DNA from: Woeseiaceae bacterium | Lineage (GTDB): Bacteria > Pseudomonadota > Gammaproteobacteria > Steroidobacterales > Woeseiaceae | Reading direction: 5' to 3' | Length of the DNA: 64,000 nucleotides | NCBI GenBank assembly: GCA_028227395.1 | Contig: JAOIZZ010000002.1 | Coordinates: 62,001-126,000, forward strand | In this document: positions 14,499-46,671 of the stretch, piece by piece | Numbering within the stretch: the first letter of the stretch is position 1 | Layout: every line of letters begins with the position of its first letter | Made by a program: the position numbers and the translations under genes | The notes under the pieces: generated by a model | The model's database searches: none | Seen by the model: only the letters and a program-made list of their open reading frames with translations | Told to the model about the DNA's origin: nothing

Positions 14499-15475
14499 TA
14501 ATAATGTCCAATTTTTTTTACAAAATCCGGTTTACGCCATATTCTATATTTATGGTAAGCGCTTATATCGGCTGTCCACCCATCTCTGAAAATTAAAATT
14601 AATCGCTCAGGTTTGTATTTACTCTGATACTGATGAATTGAACTTAAAAAGCCTCTTAAATTGTTGGCATTTGAATTATGAGGATCATTATCATTGGCTG
14701 TAACCGCAACAAATGAATTTCGATCTAGATTCAATAAATTTTCTAAATCTGAGTGAAATGGTTTAGTTTCTGACTCAGAGGCATACCAATAACCTTTGAG
14801 GATATGATTATTTGAATACAACACAGGTAATTTTTTTGTTACTAAAGAATCGATGTAACCACCACCCCATAACCACAAAGAGTTAAATAGATTACTATCA
14901 ATAGATTTATTATCATAAATTAACATCTGAATTTCGTTGATTAATTGACCGTATATCTGAGACTGATATCCACTAGGAAAAACTTGATTAATACTTAGAT
15001 TTAATATCTCAGTAGGCGAATAACTACTCGTTGGAATTGAATGTTTTGATTGTATATAACCCGTAATACCATTAGTCATAAGATCAACTGAATACTCTTT
15101 TGCTAAAATTTTATTTATTTCTTTATAAACAAATACCATATCTTTTTTATCTATCAATTTTTTGCTTATTGATTTAACAAGCATTCGATCTAAATGTGCT
15201 TGGATAAAAACTGGATCTGCTGAAGCAATCCAGTTCATTGGTTTTTTTTTAGTTTCTCCATAATATCTTAGCGCACCAAAACTATATATTTCTTCAGGTG
15301 CATCAAGATAATATAAGATACGATTAATTATATTTTTAGTAGGTTTATTGTACGTAAGATTTGATCTTGCAAGCCAGTTTTGCAGATTAAGATCTATATC
15401 AATGCATTCCCCTAGTGCAGGTAATACTATTATGGAGAAAGGATTTTTGACTGATGGCATCATGAGACCAAACAT
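14498..15475 (-). CDS. RpfE-like / phosphoglycerate-mutase-like hypothetical protein
   Basis: Weak similarity recalled plus position upstream of recJ, as in the Xanthomonas rpfE-recJ arrangement; SLWLWGGG motif. Confidence 0.55.
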   Translation of the reverse strand: MFGLMMPSVKNPFSIIVLPALGECIDIDLNLQNWLARSNLTYNKPTKNIINRILYYLDAPEEIYSFGALRYYGETKKKPMNWIASADPVFIQAHLDRMLVKSISKKLIDKKDMVFVYKEINKILAKEYSVDLMTNGITGYIQSKHSIPTSSYSPTEILNLSINQVFPSGYQSQIYGQLINEIQMLIYDNKSIDSNLFNSLWLWGGGYIDSLVTKKLPVLYSNNHILKGYWYASESETKPFHSDLENLLNLDRNSFVAVTANDNDPHNSNANNLRGFLSSIHQYQSKYKPERLILIFRDGWTADISAYHKYRIWRKPDFVKKIGHY

Positions 15476-18734: not shown

Positions 18735-18834
18735 ATTTTACATTTTTCAATATCAAGCAGCTATATATTTATCTTTTTTTATATGATTTAAAATAATAAT
18801 CTTTCTCTAATTTTATTGATACACTTAAATAATA

Positions 18835-19401
18835 ATGAGTAAAAAAAAAGATTACCGTGATGGTCCACCAAAAATAACAAGAGATGAAATCGATTTATTT
18901 CGAAATACACTAGATAATACAAAGCCCATAAAAAGCCAAAAAAATCCACCCTTTCGCAAAAAATTAACTGCGAAAGCTTATTTTACTAAAAAAGATAATC
19001 AAAATGTACTCACAGAAAGCTTGAATGTCGATATTGATCTTCAGGAAGAAAATAATAGTGATATTTTAAGATTTCATCGCTCCAATATCACTCCAAAGAT
19101 TATGAAAAAATTATCACGAGGTACATTTAGTGTGCAATCCGAACTTGACCTCCATGGAATGACGTCAAATGAAGCAAGTTTGGCTTTAAAATCATTTATC
19201 AGTGAATCAGTTCAAGATGGTTTGACATGCGTTAGAGTAATTCATGGCAAAGGATTGGGCTCAGGACCAAGAGGTCCTGTCATAAAACAACAAGTAAATA
19301 GATTGCTTAGAAGATGGGAACAGGTGTTGGCTTTTATATCTGCCCGTCAAGTCGATGGTGGAACCGGCGCAGTTTATGTTTTATTAAAAAAGAGCCAATA
19401 G
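18835..19401 (+). CDS. Smr-domain protein
   Basis: ELDLHGMTSNEASLAL...VRVIHGKGLGSGPRGPVIKQQVNRLL Smr motif. Confidence 0.92.
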   Translation: MSKKKDYRDGPPKITRDEIDLFRNTLDNTKPIKSQKNPPFRKKLTAKAYFTKKDNQNVLTESLNVDIDLQEENNSDILRFHRSNITPKIMKKLSRGTFSVQSELDLHGMTSNEASLALKSFISESVQDGLTCVRVIHGKGLGSGPRGPVIKQQVNRLLRRWEQVLAFISARQVDGGTGAVYVLLKKSQ

Positions 19402-19419
19402 TAAACATGCATTTTATTA

Positions 19420-19704
19420 TTAATTTTGGTCAATAATTATATACATAATCTCATCTTTACCAATTAAACCTAAATCCTTTCTTGCTCTCTCTTCAATAGC
19501 TTCAGTGCCTATTTTTAAGTCTCTAATCTCAACCTCTAATGCTTTATTTCTATCTTCAAGAAAAATATTATTTTTAATTTGGGTATCGACACTGTTCTGC
19601 AAAACACTCATTTGTTGATAGCCGTCTTCAGAAACCCATATTTTAATTTGCATAAATAAAATCACTATTACGAGTAATAATAGAATCCAACGAACATTCT
19701 CCAT
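19420..19704 (-). CDS. ftsB: Cell division protein FtsB
   Basis: Short TM plus coiled coil, EERARKDLGLIGKDEIMY; next to eno. Confidence 0.9.
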   Translation of the reverse strand: MENVRWILLLLVIVILFMQIKIWVSEDGYQQMSVLQNSVDTQIKNNIFLEDRNKALEVEIRDLKIGTEAIEERARKDLGLIGKDEIMYIIIDQN

Positions 19705-19718
19705 AACTCAGTACCTAT

Positions 19719-21020
19719 TCATGTTTTTAAAAGAGGGACAGAAAATGCATTCTCCGGGTCATATAAAGCTTCACTACCTAGCATCTCTTCTATTCTTAAG
19801 AGTTGATTATATTTTGCCATACGATCAGATCTTGATAAGGATCCAGTTTTAATTTGAGTTGCACTCGAACCTACAGCTATATCTGAAATTGTATGATCTG
19901 AGGTCTCTCCAGATCGATGCGAGATAATTGCTGAATAATCAGCAGAAATTGCCATATTTATAGCATCAAATGTCTCGGATAAAGTACCTATCTGATTGGG
20001 TTTTATAAGTATAGAATTTGCAATACTTTTTTCTATTCCTGCTTTAAGTATAGAAGTATTTGTTACAAAAAGATCATCGCCCACGAGTTGAATGCGGTCA
20101 TTCAATTTTTTACTCAGAATCGACCATCCCTCCCAATCCGACTCATCCATTCCATCCTCGATAGTAATAATGGGATAGACATCAGCCAGTTCAGCAAGAA
20201 AATCCGAAAAACCTAATGCATCAAATTCTCGTCCTTCAGATTTCAGATGATAGATATCATTAGAAAAAAATTCACTACTTGCAACATCCAAACCTAGGGA
20301 TATATCTTTACCATGCTCTAAACCGGTTTTCTCTATTGCCTCACAAATTACATCAAGAGCAGCGCGATTTGATTTTAGATCAGGGGCAAATCCTCCTTCA
20401 TCCCCAACTGCAGTATTTAGTCCCTTTTTTTTCAAGACCGATCTAAGTGAGTGAAATACTTCTACTCCATGCCTTAGTGCTTCTTTGAATGAATCTGCAC
20501 CTACAGGGATAATCATGAATTCTTGTATATCGACATTATTATCCGCATGCGCCCCTCCATTGATGATATTCATCATTGGCACTGGCATGGTACTTTTTTC
20601 GCCAAAATACCTAAATAAAGGAATTTTTTTAGATACAGCAACAGTCTTTGCGTAAGCCATAGAGACTGCAAGTAATGCATTTGCACCTAAATTAGCTTTA
20701 TTTTCCGAACCATCTAATTGTTTTAATATATCATCAAAATCTTTTTGACTAACCACTTCCATATCAGAAAATTTATCATTAATTACTTCGTTAATATTCT
20801 GAACGGCTTTCATTACTCCTCTTCCAAGGTATCTAGATGAATCGCCATCTCGTAACTCAATTGCTTCCCGACTTCCAGTCGAAGCACCCGAGGGAACAGC
20901 AGCACGACCAAAACTACCATCATAAAATCTAATCTCAGCTTCTACAGTCGGGTTTCCTCGTGAATCAATAATTTCCCTTCCATGAATATTAGATATTGCC
21001 GTCACAATCAAAATCTCCAA
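19719..21020 (-). CDS. eno: Enolase (start may be the downstream [12 protein letters not shown])
   Basis: [31 protein letters not shown]. Confidence 0.97.
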
Positions 21021-36679: not shown

Positions 36680-38014
36680 TTAATTAAACAAATCATTGTA
36701 AAAAGCGATTCCCATTAGTAAAAACAAAATCATGATACCAAATTGGTGCCCAAGTAACTGAAATCTTATTGATAAAGGGCTTCCTTTTATCCACTCTAAA
36801 GTTTGATAAACAATTTGCCCACCATCGAGCATCGGGATAGGCATTAAATTAATAACACCGAGACTAATGCTAATCAAAGCTAAAAATTTTAAAAATTGAT
36901 TCAAACCCGCATCTGCAGATATTCCTGCATACTTTGCGATACTAAAAGGACCACTTATATTTTTAGATGAAACATCTCCAGTTAACATTTTAGTAAACAT
37001 AATGACGGTAAAACTAACAGATGCCCATGTCTCTTTTATTGATTCTGCAAAAGCATCAGTCGGATCTAATCTATTAAGATACCAAAAATTCTCATAATTA
37101 CCACCCGCCGCAACCCCTAAAATACCCTTTGGATCAGTCTCATCTGTTTGACCCAGTCGAATATCCATAACATAGTCAAAATTATCTCTCATATACCTCA
37201 TAGAAACTAACTGTCTAGGCTTACTTTCAATGATAGCTCTTAGCTCCAAAAATGATTTTACTTTTTGGTCGTCGATAGAGATTATCCGATCATTCTTTAA
37301 TAATCCGCCTTTATCTGCAGCGCCCCCTGGTAAAACTTCACCTATTACAGCTGGAGGTTGCCAAGGATAGAATCCCAATCCTTTAAATAACTCACCAGGT
37401 ACCGTTAGAGATGAGCTATCTCCTTGAACAATCATATTAATAATTTTATTGGATTTTTCTTGAGTTTCTATTTGAAAATTAATTTCTTGCTTTTTAGTTA
37501 CTGTCATTAAAATTTCTGAGATTGCATCTTCCCAATCATTAATAATTTGACCTTCAATCTTCAAAATACGATCACCGTAATTCAGTCCTGCCTCAGCAGC
37601 ATATGAATTATTCTCAACTTCACCAATGACTGGTTTTATAGTCATAATTCCATTCGAAAAAATAACAAAATAAGCAAAAATCGCAAATAGAAAGTTAAAT
37701 ACAGGTCCAGCTAATAAAACTGCTACCCTTGATCTTATTGGTCTCTGATCGAAAGCTCGACCTTCATCTTTAGGGTCAATAGAACCATTGCGACCATCAA
37801 GGAATTGAACATAACCACCCAAGGGAATCATTGATAAGCAATACTCAGTTTGATCTTTTCCTACTTTTTTAGAATAAATCGATTTACCAAAACCAACTGA
37901 AAATTTTAAAACTTTCATACCGCAGTAACGACCAATAATATAATGACCAAATTCATGAATTGTAACCAAAAGACCTACGGCAAAAATAAAAGCTAGAATA
38001 CTAGTAAGTATCAT
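36680..38014 (-). CDS. rseP: RIP metalloprotease RseP
   Basis: TIHEFGHYIIGRYCGMKVLKFSVGFG, two PDZ domains, NLMPIPMLDGGQIV. Confidence 0.96.
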   Translation of the reverse strand: MILTSILAFIFAVGLLVTIHEFGHYIIGRYCGMKVLKFSVGFGKSIYSKKVGKDQTEYCLSMIPLGGYVQFLDGRNGSIDPKDEGRAFDQRPIRSRVAVLLAGPVFNFLFAIFAYFVIFSNGIMTIKPVIGEVENNSYAAEAGLNYGDRILKIEGQIINDWEDAISEILMTVTKKQEINFQIETQEKSNKIINMIVQGDSSSLTVPGELFKGLGFYPWQPPAVIGEVLPGGAADKGGLLKNDRIISIDDQKVKSFLELRAIIESKPRQLVSMRYMRDNFDYVMDIRLGQTDETDPKGILGVAAGGNYENFWYLNRLDPTDAFAESIKETWASVSFTVIMFTKMLTGDVSSKNISGPFSIAKYAGISADAGLNQFLKFLALISISLGVINLMPIPMLDGGQIVYQTLEWIKGSPLSIRFQLLGHQFGIMILFLLMGIAFYNDLFN

Positions 38015-38046
38015 AATTTATATACCTTTTTACCAAAAATAAACAT

Positions 38047-38838
38047 TCAGCTTAAAATGAGAATCAAGCCAAGAGCGAATAATGGTGCTGATGAGACAAT
38101 ACTGTCTAGTCTATCCAGCACACCACCATGTCCAGGGAAAAAATTACCAGTATCTTTAGTTCCTGAACTTCTTTTGAACATACTAATTGCGAGATCACCT
38201 ATGACAGATAATAAGCTCAATGAGATTACAAAAGGTATCAAAACTAGGTTATCGAGATCAAAATATACCGATAAAAATAAAGTAAAAATAATAACTAAGC
38301 ACAATCCACCAATGAGTCCTTCCCAAGTTTTATTCGGACTGATATGAATGGCAAGTTTTAATTGACCGAAACTTTTTCCAGCAAAATACGCACCACAATC
38401 CATCAACCAGATAAAACATAAGAAGCCTAAGAAATAATCTCTTCCCCAATTTATAAATATCCAGTCCATCGCAAAATACCCTGAAGCCAAAATAATTAAT
38501 CCTATTATCCAGCCAATCGAGCTGGGGATATGCATAGGGTAATAAAATAAACTCAAAAAAAGCAGCATCCAGAAAATAACTGAAAAAATAAATAAAAATT
38601 TAAAATCTATGATACCTAAGTCTATAAAATGAATGCCAAATATCACCGAAATTAAGGTTATTAGAAAAACGACCCTGAGGTTTATATTATCTTGATCTAT
38701 AAGATTTGCCCATTCCCATCCAGCAATAATAAAAATTATAAAAAATAATGCCCTAGTTATCTCATGAGGCATAAAATATAGAATACTTAATAGAACTATA
38801 AGCCCAACAATACCAGTTATCGCTCTTTCCTTTAGCAT
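38047..38838 (-). CDS. cdsA: Phosphatidate cytidylyltransferase
   Basis: SVIGDLAISMFKRSSGTKDTGNFFPGHGGVLDRLDS signature. Confidence 0.96.
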   Translation of the reverse strand: MLKERAITGIVGLIVLLSILYFMPHEITRALFFIIFIIAGWEWANLIDQDNINLRVVFLITLISVIFGIHFIDLGIIDFKFLFIFSVIFWMLLFLSLFYYPMHIPSSIGWIIGLIILASGYFAMDWIFINWGRDYFLGFLCFIWLMDCGAYFAGKSFGQLKLAIHISPNKTWEGLIGGLCLVIIFTLFLSVYFDLDNLVLIPFVISLSLLSVIGDLAISMFKRSSGTKDTGNFFPGHGGVLDRLDSIVSSAPLFALGLILILS

Positions 38839-38853
38839 AAATGAGTCCTATAA

Positions 38854-39552
38854 CTATACATTTTTTCCATATCGCCTTTTTCTTTGAGCATAAAAATCTA
38901 ATGCTAGCTGTAAATCATCGCTAACAAAGTCAGGCCACAAAGTGTCACAAAAATATAGCTCTGTATATGCAATATTCCATAATAGAAAGTTTGATATTCT
39001 CCGTTCCCCACCTGTTCGAATTAACAAATCAGGATCAGGGTTTGCACCCAATTGCATATATGATGAGAATTGCTTCTCATCAACATCAATTTGATTTAAT
39101 TCATTGCTTTCAATTTTATCTTGAATTAATTTTGCTGCATTAACTATATCCCATCTCCCTCCATAAGCCATTGCAATGGTTAAATTTAGACCTTGATTAT
39201 TTTTTGTTAATAATTCGGCTTTATCAATCTTATTAATTAATGATTTTTTTAAATTAGACCTATCTCCTATAAATCTAATTTTTACATTATTATTGTTAAG
39301 ATCTTTTATTTCAGAGTCGAGAGTCTCTATGAAAAGCGCCATCAATAGGTTAACTTCTTTAAGTGGGCGACCCCAATTCTCAGAACTAAATGCATACAAT
39401 GTGAGAAACTCTATCCCTAGCGAACCAATAACACGGACAATATCTCGAGCGGTTATGGCGCCTCTTTTGTGACCAAATTTTCTACTCTCGTTATGATTTT
39501 TGGCCCATCTACCATTTCCATCCATGATTATTGCAATGTGATTAGGTTTCAT
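38854..39552 (-). CDS. uppS: Undecaprenyl diphosphate synthase
   Basis: HIAIIMDGNGRWAK, LTLYAFSSENWGRP, DLLIRTGGERRISNFLLWN. Confidence 0.98.
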   Translation of the reverse strand: MKPNHIAIIMDGNGRWAKNHNESRKFGHKRGAITARDIVRVIGSLGIEFLTLYAFSSENWGRPLKEVNLLMALFIETLDSEIKDLNNNNVKIRFIGDRSNLKKSLINKIDKAELLTKNNQGLNLTIAMAYGGRWDIVNAAKLIQDKIESNELNQIDVDEKQFSSYMQLGANPDPDLLIRTGGERRISNFLLWNIAYTELYFCDTLWPDFVSDDLQLALDFYAQRKRRYGKNV

Positions 39553-41910: not shown

Positions 41911-42984
41911 TTATTTTTTTGTGACTTTCTTCTTAGCTACTTTCTTCTTAGCTACTTTCTTCTTAGCTACTTTCTTCTTAGCTACTTTCTTCTTAGCTAC
42001 TTTCTTCTTAGCTACTTTCTTCTTTGTCGTCTCTTTTATAGGTTTTTCCTCAGATATTTCTTCTGATGACTTTATTTCAGATGCAATATCTTTTTTATCA
42101 ACTGAAATAGACTCATCTAACTTTGGCTCTCCATCCACTTCAAGAGGCTTAGATGTTTTTGATTTTTTATTCACAGAGGTTATTTTTACTTTTTTACTTG
42201 TTATTTTGCCTGGTATTTTATTCTTCCTTACACTCTGTTTGGTAGGTTTTCCATCTTCATCCAACTCTATAAATTCATCATCACTCAAAGCGACTTCAGG
42301 AAGGGAGGCCTTCCCATCTAATACCGCATCCGCCATATATGAAGCATATAAAGAAACAGCTCTTATAGCATCATCATTTCCTGGAATTACGTAATCAACA
42401 AGATCAGGAGAACAATTAGAATCAACAATACCAACGACAGGAATACCTAGTTTTTTTGCTTCGCGAATAGCTATTTCCTCTTGCCCGACATCCACCACAA
42501 AAAGTGCATCTGGAATGGATCCCATGTCTTTTATTCCACCAAGACTTTTTTCTAATTTTTCAGATTCCCTGGTTAAACCTAAAATCTCTTTCTTATTTAG
42601 CCCGACAAAGCCGCCCTCTTCTGTCATTTTATCTAAATTCTTTAACCTCTTTACCGATTGACGAATCGTCTTATAATTGGTTAGCATGCCACCAAGCCAT
42701 CGATGATTCACATAAGGCATTTCACAGCGCTCCGCTTCAGATTTAACTGTTTCTCTTGCAGCACGTTTAGTGCCAACAAATAAAACCTTTCCGCCATCTG
42801 AGATAATAGCTTTGATAAATGCATAAGCATCTCTAGCCATTGGCAAACTTTTTTCTAAATTAATTATGTGAATTTTATTTCTAGAACCAAAGATATAAGG
42901 TGCCATCTTAGGATCCCAATAACGAGTTTGATGTCCAAAATGAACGCCCGCTTCAAGCATTTCACGCATAGTAATATCTTTCAT
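41911..42984 (-). CDS. rpsB: 30S ribosomal protein S2 with extended lysine-rich C-terminal tail
   Basis: [24 protein letters not shown]; tail ends in (KKKVA)n. Confidence 0.97.
41921..42025 (-). repeat. In-frame 15-bp tandem repeat (unit gctactttcttctta on + strand; KKKVA on - strand), about 7 copies
   Basis: gctac recurs at 41936, 41951, 41966, 41981, 41996 and 42011 with identical 15-bp spacing, plus a variant gtgac unit at 41921. Confidence 0.97.
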
Positions 42985-44019: not shown

Positions 44020-46671
44020 ATGTCTTCTAGCTTAACTATTGATTTAAAAGAAGATGCTGATATCAGATGTTTTTCTGAATCAATGACTAAAAATAGTACA
44101 CTCGATAGTCTAAAACTATCCTTAGCAGAGATAGATGACAACCTTATGGCGCGCTTCATTAATAATGAAGCAATAGAAAATCTTGTTTATCTGCGTTCTC
44201 ATGCCATAGATCAAATAATGCTCCATCTTTGGCGTACAAATAAGTTAAATAACTTACCGGATATCGTGTTAATGGCAGTTGGAGGTTACGGTCGCGGTGA
44301 ATTACATCCGCAATCAGATATCGACATCATGATCTTATTTAAATCTAAAATAACACCTGAGATAAATGATCGTATTTCACTATTTCTAACCACTCTTTGG
44401 GATTTAGGTTTTGATCTTGGTCATAGTGTCCGCTCACTAAAAGAATGCAAAGCTGAGTCGGAAAAAGATTTAAGCACCATAACAACTCTCATGGAATCGC
44501 GTTTATTATTTGGATGCAAAAAACTTCATAACTCTATGAGTGAAAGTATCAAAAAAAATATGATGTGGTCATCAAAGAAATTTTTTGCCGGAAAAAGAAA
44601 AGAGCAAGTTGACAGACATCTTCGATCAGATAATTCAGCTTATAAACTCGAGCCCAATGTGAAGCTTAGTCCAGGTGGACTGAGAGATATTCAATTAATA
44701 GGCTGGGTGGCAAAAAGACACTTCCAAGTCAATAATATAAATGAGCTGATCAAACATAAATTTCTCACCGTTGGACAATTAAAAAGGCTAAATGAAGGGC
44801 AAAGATTTCTTTGGAAAATTCGCTATGGACTCCACGTAATAGCAAAAAGAAGGGAAGATCGATTATTATTTGATTATCAAAAAAATTTAGCAGCGATGCT
44901 AGGTTATGAGGATGCAGCTTTTACTCTTGCTGTAGAACAAATGATGCAACGTTATTATAGAACTGTAATGGAATTAAGCCGTATCAATGAAATGTTATTA
45001 CAACAATTTGAAGAGGCTATTTTACTTAATCCAAATGCAAAGCCAAAGGCGATTAACAACTCATTTCAAATAAAAAATGGCTATCTGCAAGCAACACATA
45101 ATCAAATATTTGAGGAGAACCCGTCATGCTTGTTGATGATTTTTCTCTTGTTACAACAAGAAGAAAAATTAATTGGTGTAAGTGCCTATACGATTGGACT
45201 AATAAAAAGAAATCTATATTTAATTGATGATGAATTTAGGCAGAACCCAAAAAATCATCGTTTATTTTTAGAGATACTAAAAGCTCCTCAAGGGGTAACG
45301 CACGAACTAAGAAGAATGAATTTATATGGAGTATTAGGTCTTTATATTCCTGCATTTGGTCGAATTGTTGGACGTATGCAATATGATTTATTTCACGCCT
45401 ATACCGTTGATGAACATACTCTTTTCGTGGTGAGTAACTTAAGAAGATTTGCATTATCAAGGTTTGATCATGAATACCCACATTGCAGTAAATTAATGCA
45501 ATCACTTGAAAAGCCAGAAATTGCCTATCTTGCAGGAATTTTTCATGATATCGCAAAAGGACGTGGAGGAGATCATTCTGAACTTGGGGCTATTGATGCC
45601 GAAGCCTTTTGCCTAGAACATGGTATGAGTGAATACTCTTCAAAGACAGTCGCTTGGCTGGTCAAACATCATCTTTTATTATCGATGACTGCTCAAAAGA
45701 AAGACATCAGTGATCCTGCTGTCATTAATGAATTTTCTAGAATAATTGGAGATAAGATACATCTTGATTACCTTTATGTACTATCTATCGCAGACATAAG
45801 AGGCACTAATGAAAATCTATGGAACTCCTGGAAAGCAACTCTATTTTATGATCTTTATAGCCTTACAAAACGAGCATTAAGGAGTGAATTGGATGATCCA
45901 ATTGATCGCGATCAATTGATAGTAGAAAAAAAGTCTGAATCACTTGATTTGCTATCAAAATTACCCATTGATAACAAAGATATTAGTGATATTTGGAATT
46001 TGCATACGGAAGAATATTTCATAAGATATCGTGCCAACGAAATAGCTTGGCACACCAAGAAACTAATGGATAATGATAATTCTAAGAATGGCTTTATTGA
46101 TATACGCGAACAAATCAATGACGAAAGTATTCAAATTGTTGTTTATACGCCACAATCAATGAGAACTTTTGTTGCCACTACCGGAATATTAGATGAATTA
46201 GGGATGAATATATTAGACGCAAGAATTGTTCCGATGAATAACGATTTCAGTATGGATACCTTTATCTTTATAAATAATGATAATGAAAATCAGGTAAATG
46301 AAAAAACATTAGTAAAAATAAAATCAAAATTATCTGCATTTCTTATAAATACTGATGAAGGAAAAATTAAAATATCACGTCGAGTCTCAAGAAAAGCTAA
46401 GCATTTCTCAACGAAACCAGAAGTTATATTTAAAACTGATAGAAATAACAATCGCACGGTTATAGAAATAATAACAAAAGATCAGCCTGGTTTACTTTTC
46501 AAGATTGGGAGTATATTCACAAAACTAAATATTAATATTGAAACTGCTAAGATTGTGACCATTGGTGAAAGAGCTGAAGATGTTTTCTTTGTCGTTGATG
46601 ATCTCAATATGCCATTATCTGAAAAAATTAAAACACAATTAAAAAATACTTTAATCCAGTACATAAACTAA
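44020..46671 (+). CDS. glnD: Bifunctional uridylyltransferase/uridylyl-removing enzyme GlnD
   Basis: VGGYGRGELHPQSDIDIMIL NTase motif, HD domain GIFHDIAKGRGGDHSELG, C-terminal ACT domains. Confidence 0.97.
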   Translation: MSSSLTIDLKEDADIRCFSESMTKNSTLDSLKLSLAEIDDNLMARFINNEAIENLVYLRSHAIDQIMLHLWRTNKLNNLPDIVLMAVGGYGRGELHPQSDIDIMILFKSKITPEINDRISLFLTTLWDLGFDLGHSVRSLKECKAESEKDLSTITTLMESRLLFGCKKLHNSMSESIKKNMMWSSKKFFAGKRKEQVDRHLRSDNSAYKLEPNVKLSPGGLRDIQLIGWVAKRHFQVNNINELIKHKFLTVGQLKRLNEGQRFLWKIRYGLHVIAKRREDRLLFDYQKNLAAMLGYEDAAFTLAVEQMMQRYYRTVMELSRINEMLLQQFEEAILLNPNAKPKAINNSFQIKNGYLQATHNQIFEENPSCLLMIFLLLQQEEKLIGVSAYTIGLIKRNLYLIDDEFRQNPKNHRLFLEILKAPQGVTHELRRMNLYGVLGLYIPAFGRIVGRMQYDLFHAYTVDEHTLFVVSNLRRFALSRFDHEYPHCSKLMQSLEKPEIAYLAGIFHDIAKGRGGDHSELGAIDAEAFCLEHGMSEYSSKTVAWLVKHHLLLSMTAQKKDISDPAVINEFSRIIGDKIHLDYLYVLSIADIRGTNENLWNSWKATLFYDLYSLTKRALRSELDDPIDRDQLIVEKKSESLDLLSKLPIDNKDISDIWNLHTEEYFIRYRANEIAWHTKKLMDNDNSKNGFIDIREQINDESIQIVVYTPQSMRTFVATTGILDELGMNILDARIVPMNNDFSMDTFIFINNDNENQVNEKTLVKIKSKLSAFLINTDEGKIKISRRVSRKAKHFSTKPEVIFKTDRNNNRTVIEIITKDQPGLLFKIGSIFTKLNINIETAKIVTIGERAEDVFFVVDDLNMPLSEKIKTQLKNTLIQYIN

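Follow-up and report, generated by a model that had tools for sequence, protein, structure and literature searches.

The cdsA-rseP junction in a Woeseiaceae genome

The junction of cdsA and rseP in the DNA analyzed here raises the question of whether its owner has given up the MEP pathway to isoprenoids and, if so, what took its place. In the window (the whole 64,000-nucleotide stretch analyzed, which is part of contig C12 of assembly G000), the ORFs for CdsA and RseP lie 32 bp apart with no dxr between them, as a preliminary description of this DNA had stated, and the identities of the two ORFs were confirmed with Pfam and NCBIfam (Table 1). The same description regarded uppS-cdsA-dxr-rseP as a widespread gene order, and within the same taxonomic order this proved correct: among dxr-bearing relatives, homologs of CdsA and RseP flanked dxr at 12 of the 12 dxr loci examined, so the lack of dxr in the window is a genuine change from the gene order of the ancestor. 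The second locus that it singled out, from which ispD and ispF were said to be missing, has the order eno, an ftsB-sized ORF, a Smr-like ORF on the opposite strand, and surE, and we found neither ispD nor ispF between eno and surE. Its remark that uppS is kept was also upheld, as the UppS ORF scored above the TIGR00055 cut-off. UppS uses FPP and IPP as substrates. Elsewhere in the window, a ribosomal protein S2-like ORF (rpsB) has a lysine-rich tail with repeated AKKKV units at its end.

Table 1. Locations of features at the window loci, in the mevalonate cluster of relatives, and of two incidental observations (window positions unless a locus is named)
Feature	Location	Strand	Remarks
cdsA-rseP junction without dxr	38015..38046	.	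between RseP and CdsA ORFs
rseP	36680..38014	-	TIGR00054, 345 bits vs cut-off 147.6
cdsA	38047..38838	-	PF01148, 2.7e-50
uppS	38854..39552	-	TIGR00055, 287 bits vs cut-off 109.6
eno	19719-21020
ftsB-sized ORF	19420-19704		after eno
eno-surE interval	18735..19718	.	ftsB-sized ORF and Smr-like ORF
rpsB, lysine-rich tail	41911-42000
HMGR-mevalonate kinase fusion	L014:8068-10311		orthologs in L015-L021
Phosphomevalonate kinase candidate	L014:10308-11306
HMGR frame with in-frame TAA codons	G143:C2:151289-152410

MEP genes in the genus and family

The G000 assembly comprises 1.62 Mb in 50 contigs and is 84.6% complete, and our searches extended from it to a sample of 61 genomes of the family, including 37 with a completeness of 90% or more. 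DXR was found in none of nine genomes of the genus, one of which is 99% complete, and in the order sample none of the genomes positive for dxr belonged to the family. Neither IspH nor IspF was found in any of the 61 family genomes, while control genomes were matched where expected in both searches. These counts bear out the suggestion of the preliminary description that the MEP pathway had been lost or replaced. The N-terminal DXS family had no match in G000 or in its nearest relative, G008, the DNA of which is 92-97% identical to that of G000. Elsewhere in the family the DXS matches were weak (19-39 bits) and fell mostly in frames of ~690 or ~360 residues; we considered these as possible true Dxs enzymes and rejected them, since such frame sizes are typical of transketolases and E1 subunits, and we judge them to be transketolase-like proteins or E1 relatives. 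The sole GHMP kinase in the G000 assembly was homoserine kinase (ThrB), encoded beside a homoserine dehydrogenase-like ORF, and hence neither IspE nor mevalonate kinase is present in the assembly.

A mevalonate cluster in relatives

A swap to the mevalonate route had been put forward as plausible, and we found a full mevalonate cluster in the closest relative as well as family-wide. HMG-CoA reductase (HMGR) was present in 58 of the 61 family genomes, including 37 of the 37 high-quality ones; the genomes without it were G000 (85% complete), G007 (65%), and G005 (52%). In G008, the plus-strand part of the cluster encodes HMG-CoA synthase, preceded by mdh, fadE, and a gene for a small protein, and the minus strand encodes Idi1, a 747-residue fusion of HMGR and mevalonate kinase, a 332-residue GHMP kinase, and diphosphomevalonate decarboxylase (MVD). 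Beyond the decarboxylase gene are ispA and genes for an ExeA-like ATPase, a GspB-like protein, and a DAK/DegV protein (pathway genes were assigned by Pfam and NCBIfam domains; the other neighbors were named by eye). This order was kept in eight loci, six from the genus and two from other genera of the family, one of the latter two in a genome that is a single contig of 4.06 Mb, and between ispA and mdh two MAGs titled Woeseiaceae had their genes arranged in the same way.

Most of the pathway assignments in relatives were supported by scores above model cut-offs: HMGR with TIGR00532 (385 bits vs 260), mevalonate kinase with TIGR00549 (244 bits vs 163), MVD with TIGR01240 (248 bits vs 171), and the IPP isomerase Idi1 with TIGR02150 (160 bits vs 106). 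HMG-CoA synthase exceeded the cut-offs of PF01154 and PF08540 and has the Cys motif ACLGG, and it scored 168 against TIGR01835, below the cut-off of 360. The 332-residue GHMP kinase had TIGR01220 as its best NCBIfam match, at 78 bits (below the cut-off of 166), and a profile of this kinase had the Lin0012 protein (3k17) as its best PDB match, with the phosphomevalonate kinase (PMK) 1k47 ranking lower. A decarboxylase of the diphospho type needs a PMK step, and we therefore read this kinase as a probable divergent PMK, in keeping with its position and its weak similarity.

In the order sample of 117 genomes, the distributions of dxr and HMGR were nearly complementary: dxr was found in 36 genomes and HMGR in 83, with both in four and neither in two. 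The long fused HMGR never occurred together with dxr in this sample; the four genomes with both genes (G063, G068, G069, and G126) have unfused HMGRs in frames of 391-453 residues, which perhaps serve mevalonate catabolism or mark a transitional state. The two genomes with neither gene were G000 and G066; the latter is 82% complete and may represent another assembly gap. Unlike its relatives, an HMGR frame in G143 contains three TAA codons in frame, as would be seen with a broken gene, a sequencing error, or recoding.

A probable mevalonate cluster of the window species

The preliminary description had proposed searching the complete genome for genes of the two pathways, and in G000 this gave a divided answer: the absence of MEP genes held, but no mevalonate pathway genes were read in the 84.6%-complete assembly either, leaving it with neither pathway. 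IspA was likewise not found in G000, where the protein search gave only an IspB-like synthase, and a FadE query gave only distant paralogs (frames 27-32% identical to acyl-CoA dehydrogenase). Taken alone, this search of the species' own genome would mislead, as the mevalonate cluster very probably falls in a gap between contigs C3 and C48. When a 19-kb query containing the G008 cluster was compared with G000, the region was matched only from query base 14935, at base 1 of C48 and with 92% identity; two further short matches, on C12, were to a different, ABC-transporter-like place. The G008 stretch preceding this query matched C3 at 96-97% identity as far as base 44275, where that contig ends. 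Contig C3 ends within a gene for an SDR (short-chain dehydrogenase-like) protein and C48 begins within the DAK/DegV gene, so that 17.1 kb (2187 + 14934 bp in G008 coordinates) is missing between them, a stretch that in G008 holds the entire mevalonate cluster and ispA. Since both contigs end mid-gene at the two borders of this stretch, we attribute the absence of the cluster to the draft state of the assembly, and the window species very probably carries a mevalonate cluster in the ~17-kb unassembled gap between the end of C3 and the start of C48. G000 keeps UppS and the IspB-like synthase, both of which require FPP, and their presence without IspA is what such a gap would be expected to produce. 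A caution follows for other draft genomes that seem to lack both pathways, which may have the cluster in an assembly gap.

We are thus highly confident in a reading in which the ancestor of the family lost the MEP pathway and came to make IPP and DMAPP via mevalonate, with the window species' own cluster lying in the assembly gap and the enzyme activities being those predicted from sequence. The ancestor would have lost dxr from between cdsA and rseP, ispD and ispF from between eno and surE, and ispH together with the remaining MEP genes. In the predicted pathway, acetoacetyl-CoA and acetyl-CoA would give HMG-CoA, which would be converted by way of mevalonate, mevalonate-5-phosphate, and its diphosphate to IPP; Idi1 would convert IPP to DMAPP, and IspA would yield the FPP that feeds UppS and IspB.

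Isoprenoid precursors are imported by Rickettsia, and the alternative that the window species has lost both pathways and is likewise an auxotroph importing its precursors was suggested to us by ThrB being the only GHMP kinase and by the lack of HMGR. It would account for an assembly without dxr, ispH, ispF, dxs, HMGR, mevalonate kinases, or ispA; however, a deletion would have joined the flanks in a single contig, whereas here each of two contigs breaks off within a gene, right where the missing stretch begins or ends, and on these contig ends we rejected auxotrophy. Also within that stretch are mdh, fadE, and further genes, and the full cluster is present in a relative as close as G008, which makes auxotrophy very improbable. 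A second alternative, that the MEP genes were relocated and then missed, draws on the incompleteness of the G000 assembly, but near-complete (99-100%) relatives in the genus and family are without ispH and ispF, and near-complete relatives within the order sample are also without dxr, so we give it next to no credence. It is just as hard to credit a divergent MEP variant with DXR-II (DRL) in place of dxr, a substitution known in some bacteria according to a passage of PMC3847144, since that route would still require the IspF and IspH that are absent from all of the family genomes sampled.

A fusion of HMGR and mevalonate kinase

The fusion of HMGR with mevalonate kinase is well supported: in each of the eight genomes it is encoded by a single open frame (742-805 residues), with TIGR00532 matching residues 3-387 and TIGR00549 residues 448-722, both above cut-off. 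Each half aligned to enzymes whose structures were solved separately, with no solved chain covering both. The same fusion was present in Dyella, Cryobacterium, Calditrichota, Acidobacteriota, and others, and a module of MVD, PMK, the fusion, and Idi1 recurred in Rhodanobacteraceae, Calditrichota, Acidobacteriota, and other records. In a tree of 48 proteins, in which nine inner forks are open, the family sequences grouped with the two MAGs titled Woeseiaceae (fork support 95/73, not starred); with the shared gene order of those MAGs, this makes Woeseiaceae the most likely family. Literature titles and abstracts gave no clear description of an HMGR-mevalonate kinase fusion, and passages of PMC13001223 and PMC13370337 describe no such protein. 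We tentatively suggest that MVD, PMK, the fusion, and Idi1 might form a mobile cassette that has passed between Gammaproteobacteria, Calditrichota, Acidobacteriota, and Actinomycetota, taking the place of the MEP pathway in entire families, the fusion perhaps channeling mevalonate from reductase to kinase. The reductase-kinase fusion may merit testing for metabolic engineering.

Relation to known pathways

The cluster resembles the bacterial mevalonate pathway with class II HMGR in that HMGS, HMGR, mevalonate kinase, MVD, and Idi1 are in one cluster; it differs in that HMGR and mevalonate kinase form one protein of ~745 residues and in that the PMK is divergent. A search of titles and abstracts for a mevalonate or isoprenoid pathway in Woeseiaceae or Woeseia gave nothing relevant. 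According to a passage of PMC7691419, the mevalonate pathway occurs in Wenzhouxiangella and not in Marinicella, so that there, as here, one gammaproteobacterial lineage has the pathway and a related lineage does not; the Wenzhouxiangella pathway is tied to squalene and soda-lake life, and that passage mentions neither dxr nor a fusion. A survey puts mevalonate users at 12% of bacterial species and those with neither pathway at 2.6%, and states that operons are more frequent for mevalonate genes, which may be subject to horizontal transfer (passages of PMC13001223).

Our case is a well-supported instance of a type of pathway swap already on record; new here are its family-wide extent and the reductase-kinase fusion in several phyla. 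It amounts to a clean, family-wide exchange of an essential pathway in Gammaproteobacteria, the scar of which can still be read at two loci, and the missing DXR predicts fosmidomycin insensitivity in these lineages. Legionella and Coxiella, Gammaproteobacteria for which mevalonate has been described in place of MEP, bear on the present case by analogy only, the gene set here including a reductase-kinase fusion. Legionella is reported to be without a canonical PmvK and often without HmgS (passage of PMC13001223), whereas the present cluster, compared with it by description, has HMGS and a PMK candidate. An enzyme similar to this candidate might carry out the step that Legionella reportedly lacks.
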